Shown here in pieces: positions 7,361 through 20,583 of a DNA stretch of 40,260 nt; within the stretch, counting starts at the first letter, position 1, and every line of letters starts with the position of its first letter. Both the position numbers and the translations under genes were made by a program. A model generated the notes under the pieces. It saw only the letters and a list, made by a program, of their open reading frames with translations, did no database searches and was not told the DNA's origin. The DNA is from a virus, in IMG/VR virus record IMGVR_UViG_3300046011_003368, positions 1 to 40,260 of that record; one strand, given 5' to 3'.

Positions 7361-8596
7361 TTAAATACCTATAACCGTTGCAAATGTTGGTGTGTTGCGA
7401 ATAATTGGGAACTTGTACGCGATAAAGTAGCCGCTTGAATCTGTCCAGTCATCAATTGACGGATGCGCGTTAAATTTTTCGGGTTCGTTTTTATCATCAT
7501 AACCGTGCGTTTCAAGTGCATTTGTTAGATTAGGGCATTTGTCAGTGTTTATCAAAAACCTGTCATGTGATAATAAACCATTAAACGCATTTATTCTATC
7601 TCTTACGGCTGGATTGCTAGGATTATGCAAAACTTGAAATCCTGCTTGCCTAATCAAGGCAATATCCGAAAGTGAGGCGTTTGTTTTTTGAGCCGCGCCA
7701 CTTGCATCGGGATAGATAATTACTTTTTTTGATTTAAAGCGCGTAAGGTTGTTGATAAAGTCTTGTGTATCGTGTGATACAAACTCATCAACAGCAATTG
7801 GATTGTTTGAATCAATAACAAACACAACAGCACAACATCCACCGATATTAAAATCAATGCTGATATGAATGACTGTATCGGATTCATTTAATGTCCTATT
7901 TGAATGGTGTTTTTGTCTATCGAAAAAATGATAAATCTTTGATTGATTGAGTGATACGAATTCACCGTTTAAGTACAATTCAGCAAGTATCGGGTCGTAG
8001 TTTGCTAAGATTTGCGCGGCGTAATCTGGTGGCAGCCATTTATTTGAGTATGTTGATGCTTTGAATAAAACATATCCGTCTTGTTGTTTTTTTACCCACT
8101 TCTCATAAACAAAACCGTTTATGCCTTGGTCAGGTGTTGTAACAACCGCAATTGAATTAGCCGAGTTGCACTTTTGACGATTCCTTTCTGTTATTTTTCG
8201 CCAAACTAAAGCCGCCTTTTCTTTTTTGAGCGTATCAAGCTCATCGACAACAGAATGCGCGGTTTCGTAAGCAACAATCCTTTCGGGTCTATCATAGCTA
8301 CGAAAAATAATAGAACCATATCCGATAATATCAATCGTGTAAGTTGATTTATTAACGCGGTAATCATGTCCCAATGCTTGCAAATCTTCTTCAACTCCTG
8401 GCATTGCGCGTAATGTTAGCAAGTCGTAACTGGGCATATAATAGCCACCGTTAGAATCAGGGCTTTCAAGTAATAGCTTGATTAAACGCAATGTACCAGC
8501 GCGTGATTTTCCACTACCTAAACCACCAACAATTGCAGGGTGTTTATCTTTTGATTGAATAAAATCACATTGCGGTCGTGTTAGTTGTAAATTCAT
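7361..8596 (-). CDS. terL: Terminase large subunit
   Basis: A 411-residue packaging motor and nuclease. The N-terminal ATPase has Walker A GGLGSGKS (24-31) and Walker B VVDEL (116-120). The C-terminal RNase H-like nuclease shows acidic residues in SIDFNIGG (D248), YPDASG (D297) and the C-terminal SIDDW motif. It cuts concatemeric DNA and pumps it through the portal. It overlaps small terminase by ATGA, so the pair is coupled. The length is at the short end for the family, but all expected motifs are present. Confidence 0.95.
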   Translation of the reverse strand: MNLQLTRPQCDFIQSKDKHPAIVGGLGSGKSRAGTLRLIKLLLESPDSNGGYYMPSYDLLTLRAMPGVEEDLQALGHDYRVNKSTYTIDIIGYGSIIFRSYDRPERIVAYETAHSVVDELDTLKKEKAALVWRKITERNRQKCNSANSIAVVTTPDQGINGFVYEKWVKKQQDGYVLFKASTYSNKWLPPDYAAQILANYDPILAELYLNGEFVSLNQSKIYHFFDRQKHHSNRTLNESDTVIHISIDFNIGGCCAVVFVIDSNNPIAVDEFVSHDTQDFINNLTRFKSKKVIIYPDASGAAQKTNASLSDIALIRQAGFQVLHNPSNPAVRDRINAFNGLLSHDRFLINTDKCPNLTNALETHGYDDKNEPEKFNAHPSIDDWTDSSGYFIAYKFPIIRNTPTFATVIGI

Positions 8597-16119: not shown

Positions 16120-17891
16120 TGATTAACCCACGCTACTATCAACAAGAAAGCCATGACAGCGTTATTTCGTGGGTAAAATCAACTGCTGAAAGCTGCGTAA
16201 TTGAATTACCGACAGGTGCAGGTAAAAGCGTGGTTGTTGCTATGATTGCAAACACGCTAAACCAAATCAGCAAAGGCAAGCACGTTTTATGTATTGTTCC
16301 GAAAAAAGAATTAGTTGAACAAAATGCAGAAAAACTGCGTTTAGTCGGCGGGCAGTGTTCAATGTTTAGTGCAAGTGTTGGCGAAACGTGCTTAAAGCAC
16401 GCGCTCGTAGTTGGCACGCCTGTAAGTATAAAAAACCAGTTGCACCGTTTTGGTTCAAAGTTTTGCGCTGTGATTATTGATGAATGCCATCAAATAACAC
16501 CGACTGTTAAAACCATCATCGAAGCATTGCGTGAACATAATCCGAATTTGCGTGTCATTGGTTTAAGTGCTACCCCTTACAGGCTAGGACAAGGTTTTGT
16601 GTATGGTATCGACCAAAACGGAAAGATGCTAGACGAGTCGCAAGCGAAAGAACCTTATTTTAAACGGCTTGTTTATCGCTTAGAGGCGCGTGAATTGATT
16701 GAGCAAGGCTTTTTAAGTAATCCAGTAATCGGCGCAACTAACACGCATTATGACACTAGCGGATTAACACAAAACCGCATGGGAAACTTCGATAGCTCAA
16801 CAGTTGATAAAGCGTTTATCGGAAAAGGTCGTTTAACATCAAGCATTGTGGCGGATATTGTTGAAAAGTCTCAGGGTAGAAAAGGCGTGATGATATTCGC
16901 GGCAACGATTCAACACGCGCATGAAATTTTAGAATCACTACCAAAAGAAATTAGCGCGATTGTTACTGGTGAACCAGACAAAAAGCATGAACGAAAACTA
17001 AACATTGAGTTATTTCAATCGCAAAAAATTAAATATATTGTAAATGTTGATGTTTTAACGACTGGATTTGATGCGGTTCATGTTGATGTTGTTGCAATGA
17101 TGCGTGCCACTGAAAGCGTTGCATTGTTACAGCAAATAATAGGGCGTGGCTTGCGTATATGCGATGGTAAAACCGATTGCCTAGTTTTGGATTATGCTGA
17201 AAACATCGAACGCCATTGCCCTGATGGTGACGTGTTTAATCCAGAAATAAAAGCAAGTGGTGGCGGTGAGGTTGGTGTACCAGTCAAGGCAAAATGCCCT
17301 AGCTGCAATGGTGTGAATGAGTTTTCAAAAAGACGTGACGTTGACAAAGAACAACCGATTGATGCTAACGGCTACCTTTTAGATTTAGAAGGCAATCGAA
17401 TCGAAGTTGAAGGCTTAGGCGCAATGCCAGCACACTACGGGCGGCGTTGTACTTTCACTGTTGTTAATCGCGGTGTGATTGATAGATGCTCGTACCGTTG
17501 GACGTTTAAAGAGTGTGAAGAATGTGGATTTGAGAACGACATCGCCAGCCGATATTGCCAGTCGTGTAAATGCGAAATTATAGATCCGAATGCCAAGCTA
17601 AAACTTGAACACGCGCAAATCAAAGACGCTTCAATCTTACAGACCGAAGAATGTTTAGATGTGAACGTCACACCGACGCTTTCAAAAGCTGGTAATGATT
17701 GTTTGCGGGTTAAATTCACAACACCGACACGGGTTTTCATGGTGTGGTTTAATAAGTCCACGCCGAAACAAACCATAATTTATGCCGAGTTTGATTCGTG
17801 GTTTAATTTTGGTATTAAAACCGTGACATACCAAAAAGATAAAACTGGATTTTTCAAGGTTTATGGTTACAACAAAGAGGTGGGATTATGA
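16119..17891 (+). CDS. RadD/YejH-like superfamily 2 helicase with zinc clusters
   Basis: A 590-residue helicase: Walker A PTGAGKS (31-37), DECH (121-124), SATPYR (150-155), and QQIIGRGLR as motif VI in the second RecA-like domain. The C-terminal part has cysteine pairs (CPSC, then CEEC and CQSC) suggesting two zinc-binding ribbons, as in RadD-type helicases. It acts on branched or single-stranded DNA in repair or replication restart. It overlaps the downstream gene by ATGA. Length matches the RadD family. Confidence 0.88.
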   Translation: MINPRYYQQESHDSVISWVKSTAESCVIELPTGAGKSVVVAMIANTLNQISKGKHVLCIVPKKELVEQNAEKLRLVGGQCSMFSASVGETCLKHALVVGTPVSIKNQLHRFGSKFCAVIIDECHQITPTVKTIIEALREHNPNLRVIGLSATPYRLGQGFVYGIDQNGKMLDESQAKEPYFKRLVYRLEARELIEQGFLSNPVIGATNTHYDTSGLTQNRMGNFDSSTVDKAFIGKGRLTSSIVADIVEKSQGRKGVMIFAATIQHAHEILESLPKEISAIVTGEPDKKHERKLNIELFQSQKIKYIVNVDVLTTGFDAVHVDVVAMMRATESVALLQQIIGRGLRICDGKTDCLVLDYAENIERHCPDGDVFNPEIKASGGGEVGVPVKAKCPSCNGVNEFSKRRDVDKEQPIDANGYLLDLEGNRIEVEGLGAMPAHYGRRCTFTVVNRGVIDRCSYRWTFKECEECGFENDIASRYCQSCKCEIIDPNAKLKLEHAQIKDASILQTEECLDVNVTPTLSKAGNDCLRVKFTTPTRVFMVWFNKSTPKQTIIYAEFDSWFNFGIKTVTYQKDKTGFFKVYGYNKEVGL

Positions 17892-18271
17892 AAAAGCCGA
17901 TTGACCGAAAGTATTTAAAAACTAAATTGTTTTTTGACTTTAAAAATAAAAAAGGAGAATTGCAGCGTGAATTTATTGAGCTTGAAAACTTCTACATTGA
18001 TGCACTTGATTCAATCGGTGTAAAAAATTGGTCGCTGTTTATTACTGAAATTGTTAGTGATGAATGGATTTCAAAAACTGGAAACTTATCGCTTTTAAAC
18101 GTTGTTAAATCGGCAATAGTAAAGGTAATCCAAGAAAGAATGCAAGAAATAAAACCCACCAGAACTTACACCGACAGATTCAACGCAAAAAACACCGCCT
18201 TTGACGTGCTAACTGATTATGCTTTCGGTGGTGATAAACAAGCAGCACTAGATTATTTAAAAACTTTGTAG
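17888..18271 (+). CDS. Unknown protein after RadD-like helicase
   Basis: A 127-residue mostly helical protein, coupled by ATGA to the helicase and preceded by GAGGTGG. It has no recognised domain. The C terminus (AFDVLTDYAFGGDKQAALDYLKTL) resembles short helical regions of phage DNA-metabolism accessory proteins, but this is not diagnostic. It is the last gene before the structured gap at 18.3 kb and therefore ends one transcriptional segment of the early operon. Confidence 0.65.
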   Translation: MKKPIDRKYLKTKLFFDFKNKKGELQREFIELENFYIDALDSIGVKNWSLFITEIVSDEWISKTGNLSLLNVVKSAIVKVIQERMQEIKPTRTYTDRFNAKNTAFDVLTDYAFGGDKQAALDYLKTL

Positions 18272-18286
18272 TATTATGTTTTTGAG

Positions 18287-18385
18287 TTTTTAGATTTGAG
18301 CGTACGAGGCTTATAAAATCTAAAAATTCATTTTTAACCCGTTGACTATCCGAAGCTCGTACCTTTGGATTCAACGGGTTTTTTT
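18287..18385 (+). promoter_or_regulatory. Two-hairpin attenuator-like element with complementary loops
   Basis: Hairpin 1: TTTTTAGATTT (18287-18297) pairs with AAATCTAAAAA (18316-18326). Hairpin 2: AACCCGTTGA (18336-18345) pairs with TCAACGGGTT (18371-18380), extended by ATCCGAA/TTTGGAT, then a T run, so it is a strong terminator. Loop 1 contains GTACGAG (18302-18308) and loop 2 contains CTCGTAC (18356-18362), which are perfect 7-nt complements. The loops could kiss, or pair as an antiterminator. The ribosome binding site of the methyltransferase fusion follows the T run at once. Confidence 0.7.
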
Positions 18386-18399
18386 ATGGAGTTTAAAAA

Positions 18400-20583
18400 A
18401 TGAACAAAGAATATAACGAATTTCTCGCATCAAAACAAAAAGCACATATCCACAGCGGATTTGATGTTGATGCAAACGAACTAAACAATAACCTTTTTGA
18501 CTTTCAACGGTTCATTGTGGCGCGTGCTTTAAAAGCTGGTAAATACGCCATTTTCGCAGATTGCGGATTGGGTAAAACGCTAATGCAATTAAGCTGGGCG
18601 CATGAAGTTAGCAAGCGTGAAAAACAACCCGTTTTGATTCTTGCGCCATTAGCTGTAAGCGGTCAAACAATTAGCGAGGGTTCAAAATTTGGAATTGGCA
18701 TTGCAAAATATGGCAGTGATTCAATGATTCAAATAACCAATTATGAACAACTCGATAAGATTGATGTATCGCAGTTTTGTGGCGTTGTTTTAGATGAATC
18801 ATCAATCCTTAAAAACTTTGATGGTAAAACTAAACAGTTGATTGTGGACTTGTTCAAAAACACGCCATATAAATTGGCTTGCACTGCTACACCGTCACCA
18901 AATGACCCAATGGAATTAGGCAATCATTCCGACTTTTTGGATGTGATGGGCAGAAATGAAATGTTATCAATGTATTTCATTCACGATGGCGGAGAAACTG
19001 CTAAATGGCGTTTGAAAGGTCACGCGCAAGAATTGTTCTACCAGTTTGTTGGAACGTGGGGCATTATGCTTTCAAAACCGCATGATATTGGATTTAATGC
19101 CGATGGTTATTGTTTGCCAGATTTAACCATGATTGAACACGAAATAGAAACAGGAAAGCGCGATAATGGTAGAATCTTTAATGATTCATTAACCAGTGCA
19201 ACAAACTTTAATGCTGAATTGCGATTAACTATGAATGAACGATTGCAAAAAGCGGCTGATTTAGTCAACGCAAGCAGTGAATCATTTATTGTATGGATTA
19301 AGCAAAATGAAGAAGGCGAATTACTCAAAAAAATGATTGATGGCGCGATTGAAGTAAAAGGCAGTGATTCACCAGATTACAAAGAAAAGCACCTGCTAGG
19401 GTTTGCTAATGGGGATTTTCGAGTATTAATTACTAAAACCAAAATTGCACAATTCGGATTGAATTATCAAAACTGCAATAATCAAATTTTCGCATCATTA
19501 GATTTTAGCTTCGAGGGTTTATATCAGGCAATTCGCAGATCGTATCGTTTTGGACAGAAAAACGAGGTTAAAATCCATTTGATTACGACCGAAGGAATGA
19601 GAAACGTCAAAGAATCAATCAATCACAAACAACGCCAGTTTGAACTAATGCAGGATAAAATGAGAATCGCCATGAATGTAAATTTAAACAATGAAACAAC
19701 CGAAGAATCAACACTTGACACTTTGGCTGATAAAAATTCATTCTACGATATTAAACGCGGTGATTGCGTTCAGTTAATCCGTGATGTACCAGATGAATCG
19801 GTAGGTTTAACGGTTTTCAGTCCGCCGTTTGCTGAATTGTACACATACTCAAACCATATTGAAGACATGGGTAATTCAAAAGACTATAACGAATTTTTGA
19901 CGCAATTCGGTTTTTTGGTTAAAGAATTATTTCGAGTAACAAAATCAGGGCGAAATGTCGCGGTTCATTGTATGGATTTACCAATTCAAAAAGGAAAAGA
20001 GGGTTTTATTGGACTGCGTGATTTTAGCGGTATGATTTTACGAGCATTTGAAGATGCTGGATTTATTTACCATTCACGGATTACGATTTGGAAAGACCCT
20101 GTAGTTGAAATGCAACGTACAAAAGCACTCGGACTATTGCATAAACAAGTTAAAAAAGATTCTACGATGTCGCGCGTTGGCATTCCTGATTATGTAATGG
20201 TGTTTAGAAAAGACGGAGAACGATTTGAACCAGTTGCAAATACTGACATTTCTGTCGATTTGTGGCAAAAAATAGCATCTCCAGTGTGGATGGATATTAA
20301 CTACGGTAACACGCTGCAAGGTTATCGTAATGGGCGTGATGATAATGATGAGAAGCATATTTGTCCTTTACAACTTGATACCATTGAAAGGCTTATTCTG
20401 CTTTACTCGAATAAAGGCGATACGGTTCTAACGCCATTCATGGGCATCGGTAGCGAAGTTTATCAGGCTGTTAAGATGGATAGATTCGGAATTGGTTTTG
20501 AATTAAAAGAATCGTATTTTGATTTGGCTAAAAAGAATCTAAAATCAGCAATTCGTGAAAAGTCACAAATGAGCTTATTTTAA
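18400..20583 (+). CDS. SF2/SNF2-like helicase fused to a DNA methyltransferase
   Basis: A 727-residue fusion. Residues 1-430 are a SNF2-type helicase: Walker A DCGLGKT (54-60), DESS in place of DEAH (132-135), TATPSPND (162-169), and motif VI QAIRRSYRFGQ (376-386). Residues about 445-727 are a beta-class amino-methyltransferase: motif IV SPPF (474-477), then, after a likely target-recognition region, the AdoMet motif TPFMGIGS (678-685) and GIGFELKESY. SPPF suits N4-cytosine or N6-adenine methylation. It may translocate and methylate phage DNA to evade restriction. Related fusions occur in other phages. Start ATG has GGAG 8 nt upstream. Confidence 0.88.
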   Translation: MNKEYNEFLASKQKAHIHSGFDVDANELNNNLFDFQRFIVARALKAGKYAIFADCGLGKTLMQLSWAHEVSKREKQPVLILAPLAVSGQTISEGSKFGIGIAKYGSDSMIQITNYEQLDKIDVSQFCGVVLDESSILKNFDGKTKQLIVDLFKNTPYKLACTATPSPNDPMELGNHSDFLDVMGRNEMLSMYFIHDGGETAKWRLKGHAQELFYQFVGTWGIMLSKPHDIGFNADGYCLPDLTMIEHEIETGKRDNGRIFNDSLTSATNFNAELRLTMNERLQKAADLVNASSESFIVWIKQNEEGELLKKMIDGAIEVKGSDSPDYKEKHLLGFANGDFRVLITKTKIAQFGLNYQNCNNQIFASLDFSFEGLYQAIRRSYRFGQKNEVKIHLITTEGMRNVKESINHKQRQFELMQDKMRIAMNVNLNNETTEESTLDTLADKNSFYDIKRGDCVQLIRDVPDESVGLTVFSPPFAELYTYSNHIEDMGNSKDYNEFLTQFGFLVKELFRVTKSGRNVAVHCMDLPIQKGKEGFIGLRDFSGMILRAFEDAGFIYHSRITIWKDPVVEMQRTKALGLLHKQVKKDSTMSRVGIPDYVMVFRKDGERFEPVANTDISVDLWQKIASPVWMDINYGNTLQGYRNGRDDNDEKHICPLQLDTIERLILLYSNKGDTVLTPFMGIGSEVYQAVKMDRFGIGFELKESYFDLAKKNLKSAIREKSQMSLF

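Follow-up and report, generated by a model that had tools for sequence, protein, structure and literature searches.

Between two genes of a 40,260-base virus record from IMG/VR (the whole stretch analyzed, hereafter the window) lie two hairpins whose loops are complementary to each other, which raises the question of whether this complementarity is an accident beside an ordinary terminator or part of an RNA that acts on the gene behind it. The upstream gene (17888..18271, + strand, as are all window features below) was taken from the open reading frame list and encodes a protein of 127 amino acids for which no Pfam or PHROG family match was found; 30 nt separate the end of its stop codon from the first loop. 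The downstream gene (18400..20583, with its start codon at 18400) encodes, according to Pfam, a 727-amino-acid fusion of an SNF2/helicase and an N6_N4 DNA methyltransferase. This fusion is conserved at 64-79% identity across 80 viral contigs and occurs in more distant form in 355 phage records, and the isolated phages nearest to the window by this protein have Flavobacterium columnare as host.

Folding, together with the covariation described below, places the first hairpin, H1, at 18283..18330 (arms 18283-18301 and 18309-18330), with a 14-bp lower stem, a 3-nt bulge on the 3' strand (18314-18316), and a 5-bp upper stem closed by the loop GTACGAG (loop 1, 18302..18308). A TTTTT linker (18331..18335) connects it to the second hairpin, H2, at 18336..18380 (arms 18336-18355 and 18363-18380), in which a 10-bp lower stem, a 2-nt bulge on the 5' strand (18346-18347), and an 8-bp upper stem carry the loop CTCGTAC (loop 2, 18356..18362). 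The first-pass annotation of this stretch had described two perfect hairpins; both hairpins exist, but the bulges show that neither is perfect. It had correctly recognized the loops as 7-nt complements: they are exact reverse complements, both on the + strand and within 61 nt. H2 is a GC-containing stem followed by a T run (18379..18385), as is characteristic of an intrinsic terminator, and a putative ribosome binding site, GGAG (18388..18391), follows directly 3' of the T run, in agreement with the annotated terminator shortly before the ribosome binding site. The element has a minimum free energy (MFE) of -41.9 kcal/mol (z = -6.2), which none of 200 shuffles reached, and its MFE and centroid structures are one and the same. 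No competing antiterminator fold was seen in either. At the 5' edge of H1, a putative Bacteroidota -7 promoter element, TGTTTTTG (18277..18284), deviates by one mismatch from TAnnTTTG and is weak here; the exact version, TATATTTG, is present in the orthologs L190 and L083.

The complementarity of the loops was examined by scanning 2.9 million viral contigs for a loop word followed by 30-60 nt, its partner word, 6-30 nt, and TTTTTT. For GTACGAG/CTCGTAC, at least 96 sites had both hairpins (96/122 among the matches listed), and the complete scan for GTGCGAG/CTCGCAC gave both hairpins in 67 of its 94 matches, spread over 24 sequence clusters. Hairpins were also found for GTTCGAG (4 of 26 matches) and for GTAGAAG (13/120 among the matches listed). 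The scrambled word GAGTACG yielded 26 matches, 2 of which passed the stem test, seemingly by chance, and the mismatched pair GTACGAG/CTCGCAC yielded 6 matches in the same scan, none with hairpins. BLAST searches with masked loops against the collected loci recovered 111 distinct GTACGAG/CTCGTAC and 29 GTGCGAG/CTCGCAC elements, as well as one GGTTCAG/CTGAACC element, reported with its register off by one base, and two more matches that are register shifts. As these loci had largely been fetched by loop word, the mismatch scan forms the independent part of this evidence. Kissing pairs scoring at least 34 and followed by a T run numbered 116 in the collected loci, which were mostly fetched with the GTACGAG pattern, compared to 2 in shuffles. 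At a score of at least 36, 28 were found compared to 1 in shuffles across the window and 28 phage records, 22 of which also came from the GTACGAG pattern.

The gaps before the same gene were compared in methyltransferase homologs retrieved from IMG/VR. While the majority lacked a two-hairpin element, others carried one with different matched loops: GTCGCAT/ATGCGAC in L061, ATGCGAC/GTCGCAT in L060, ATGCGAGC/GCTCGCAT in L043, and GTGCAG/CTGCAC in L010. The elements of L060 and L061 are related to each other and have identical loop words in swapped places. A further homologous gap, found by protein in L082, has kept a 7-nt complement, GTGACAG/CTGTCAC, and lacks clear hairpins. Complementarity is thus kept in homologous gaps through different words, the point on which the annotated idea of interacting loops could have failed. 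In the ten members of the window's subfamily, the stems covary as well, with 98.4% of cells paired and double changes in 22 of 32 pairs; none of 500 shuffles matched this, and slid controls were paired in about 33-40%. The kissing helix was 100% paired in the same ten members, with all of its double changes coming from one sequence, L218. Across the word scans, L218, and the covariation, complementarity is maintained by compensatory change, and we conclude that it is kept by selection. Among 15 distinct 7-nt loop words, position 2 was T in 13 and position 6 was a purine in all 15, and both loops of distinct elements resemble U-turn or anticodon loops in their N-U-N-N-N-R-N-like pattern.

Across the family, the two genes flanking the element are mostly co-directional, and the element fills the space between them, with a median of 32 nt from the stop codon to loop 1 and of 30.5 nt from loop 2 to the start codon. 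Of 69 AT-rich members, 47 had the motif TAnnTTTG upstream of loop 1, compared to 3.5% of random places, while 14 of the 21 remaining members had a -10 hexamer (at least 5/6 matches; background 4.3%) and 5 of those 21 an exact TTGAC -35 core (9%). Of 8 kissing terminators, 5 lay at most 40 nt before a co-directional start, compared to 8 of 43 other terminators of the same genomes (p = 0.02); the sets behind these promoter and start-codon figures are modest and were seeded largely by one loop word. Promoters of Bacteroidota or sigma-70 type at the 5' edge of H1 are therefore usual in the family, with a terminator directly before the start codon, whereas the promoter motif of the window itself is imperfect. 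Because promoter motifs are enriched upstream of loop 1, transcription probably begins at H1 and terminates at H2. By their type, the promoters point to Bacteroidota and sigma-70 hosts, and an AGGAGG ribosome site noticed by inspection in L469 hints at a Firmicutes host.

The genes behind the element are varied. A PHROGs scan of ten genes directly 3' of the terminator, several of them from the kind of pair described below, assigned nine to replication initiation, O-like, DnaD-like loader, or primosomal families, which the tenth matched only weakly. By inspection, replication genes, for example those for primase or helicase-like proteins, come next in other methyltransferase loci that have the element. 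MazG genes also occur behind the element. Homing-endonuclease-type domains were encoded by the first gene in 19 of 50 cases, hand-picked from lists purged of similar proteins rather than drawn at random, compared to 0 of 20 random genes. Five pairs of near-identical elements show the reason: in L520, L493, L087, L173, and L138, an endonuclease-type gene (NUMOD4/HNH, GIY-YIG, or HNH) is inserted exactly between the terminator and the next gene, and the same next gene directly adjoins the terminator in their counterparts L473, L515, L200, L161, and L104, respectively. Such pairs are natural before-and-after cases of homing behind a terminator. In one record, three kissing leaders precede different genes, of which one is methyltransferase-type. 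As near-identical elements stand before different genes, the leader is not bound to one gene, and a link to methyltransferases alone does not hold.

The element is common to hundreds of uncultivated viruses, in which the gene behind it usually serves DNA replication or DNA methylation or encodes a homing nuclease. Among the GTDB genomes (257 Gb of cellular sequence), 12 pattern matches were found, and only that in L211, a Bacteroidetes MAG, had hairpins; with 1 real element in 12 matches, a prophage element of cellular genomes was ruled out. A BLAST search of three representative elements against phage records, aimed at isolated phages, gave only one weak match, the metagenomic MW202710, which was found through stem similarity rather than loop word and has the matched pair GGTTCAG/CTGAACC. 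The 28 records selected for having the GTACGAG pair contained exactly one such pair each. Some records contained two or three elements with different words (GTAGAAG, GTACGAG, and GGACAAG in one); the words always differed where one genome had several elements, in too few cases for significance, and we regard this as an observation and not as proof of orthogonality. Three paralogous elements with different loop words lie on the minus strand of one phage record, G001 (L277), at approximately 11468, 15216, and 17903. Elements with compensated loops of largely different sequence also follow helicase-like genes in L115 (10994-11090, ATGACGG/CCGTCAT) and L205 (14498-14593, GTGGAAG/CTTCCAC), and both of these genomes have a GTACGAG element too.

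The element matched no Rfam 15 family at the gathering threshold, either in the window or in 26 related loci, the best matches below it being manA-II (21 versus 100 bits) and snoR03 (29 versus 80), so that a known Rfam RNA was ruled out as its identity. A search of the open literature on the loop words and on kissing-loop phage RNAs returned nothing matching; a survey of 224 motifs (10.1093/nar/gkx699) lay outside its scope and may describe the element. Our best reading is that the element represents an undescribed family of phage RNAs: a kissing-loop leader and terminator, proximal to the promoter, that meters the gene behind it.

In this model, transcription would start from the promoter at the 5' edge of H1, and some 50 nt later the emerging loop of H2 would pair with that of H1 in a 7-bp kissing helix. 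H2 and the U run would then end most transcripts just before the next start codon, releasing a compact RNA of about 90-100 nt, and the kissing contact would help the terminator hairpin to form or hold. The next gene, be it for a replication initiator, a DNA methyltransferase, or an inserted homing endonuclease, would be expressed only from read-through transcripts, since the succession of promoter, H1, H2, and start codon leaves little room for another promoter. As a leader, the RNA would thereby meter the expression of that gene and perhaps also set its timing. From the selection on loop pairing, we infer that pairing changes termination, by strengthening or tuning it, and that it may take place within one molecule; in the window, with its 5-nt linker and long stems, this needs sharp bends at the bulges. 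Read-through may be regulated, but as no alternative antiterminator pairing was seen, nothing shows regulation over constant termination. The attenuator proposed in the first-pass annotation is plausible, and the layout of promoter, leader, terminator, and start codon supports it; control by a ligand or protein, or by a two-state switch, gained no support, as no switching signal, alternative fold, or ligand came to light. For the model as a whole, which is built on sequence comparison, we estimate a probability of about 0.5.

If it is right, many environmental tailed phages from at least 2 host groups have in common an undescribed RNA device gating genes that control DNA replication and modification, with homing endonucleases inserted exactly behind it. 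The element would offer a defined, testable model of a loop-loop contact that alters intrinsic termination, and possibly one of how virulent phages control the start of replication.

Several known systems resemble parts of this arrangement. Transcription attenuators and riboswitch leaders share the promoter, the structured leader, and the intrinsic terminator directly before a start codon; the element differs in that no antiterminator was seen, the terminator hairpin itself takes part in the loop-loop pairing, and several unrelated genes lie behind it. In the purine riboswitch, two hairpins of one RNA upstream of a gene kiss through their L2 and L3 loops of about 7 nt. Unlike this riboswitch, the element has no three-way junction or ligand core, and one of its two hairpins is the terminator. 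The phage HK022 put RNA also forms two promoter-proximal hairpins in a phage transcript; put, however, acts to suppress termination and is not itself closed by a terminator, whereas the element is. In lambda, the segment from pR' through 6S RNA to tR' likewise consists of a promoter and then a terminator, which blocks the genes behind until antitermination by Q. A terminator after a promoter that blocks genes until antitermination is also described for Q/AlpA-type systems (PMC6606751, PMC9371919). Unlike these systems, the element does not stand before late genes, and kissing hairpins are not known to be a component of the Q system.

The alternative that survives best is an autonomous small RNA gene, in which promoter, compact kissing-hairpin RNA, and terminator form a unit that acts in trans, on a target in host or phage, with the downstream gene a mere neighbor. 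This idea is favored by the promoter that the element has at its 5' hairpin and the terminator at its 3' hairpin, by its near constancy while the genes on both sides differ, and by its usual presence once per genome. Yet one genome can have as many as three copies, differing in loop words and standing before different genes, and a start codon consistently follows close after the U run. Moreover, the GTACGAG and CTCGTAC heptamers are not enriched in element-bearing genomes, so that the loops have no evident target. We therefore consider this explanation possible but tentative.

A combination of action in cis and in trans appears unlikely to us: a virus-specific RNA family forming a self-contained termination device before replication initiators, whose terminated RNA kisses the nascent leader in trans and so senses dose or genome copy number. 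This would be a phage counterpart of plasmid copy-number control. Plasmid RNAs of the ColE1 (RNA I/RNA II) and pT181/pIP501 types make loop-loop contacts near replication control and include attenuation before a rep gene, and their pairing RNAs come from opposite strands, whereas the element has both loops on one transcript.

Because the element sits in replication modules, and the first gene behind it that is not a homing endonuclease often encodes a replication initiator or DnaD-like loader, it could also belong to an origin, where, much as with these plasmid RNAs, a short transcript beside the initiator gene opens or primes the origin, or where the loops control it. Its occurrence before methyltransferase and MazG genes, and in several copies in some genomes, makes this improbable. 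Still less probable is a boundary at the level of DNA, with the hairpin cluster as a recombination or homing hot spot for gene exchange. Such a site would account for the endonuclease-type genes that some phages have precisely after the terminator and near-identical relatives lack, and for their excess over controls (19/50 versus 0/20). However, the promoter, the U run, and the compensatory changes in stems and loops are properties of an RNA, and recombination would not require loop-loop complementarity.

The loops might instead pair between two RNA molecules, as a dimer or ring, given that every molecule carries both loops and that the window combines a short linker with long stems. The phi29 packaging RNA pairs between molecules; like the element, it has two complementary loops whose word varies between phages while pairing is kept, and it has a junction and is part of the packaging motor. 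The element is a two-hairpin fold without a three-way junction or a link to packaging; no packaging gene lies directly behind it, and the terminase-like gene of the window (7361-8596) is not adjacent. Linkers have a median of about 16 nt across elements, and in the window's subfamily the long H1 stems are interrupted on their inner (3') strand by a bulge or asymmetric internal loop, as would be expected if they fold back. Together, these points render intermolecular pairing very improbable. An ordinary terminator with loops complementary by chance can be dismissed: H2 alone would make a good one, but the mismatch scan, the covariation, and the shuffles refute it.

Apart from the leader itself, two of the element-bearing phage contigs contain tmRNA genes, at 4935-5287 in L116 and at 5887-6244 in L448, and in L116 a match to a group I intron additionally lies at 512-703.
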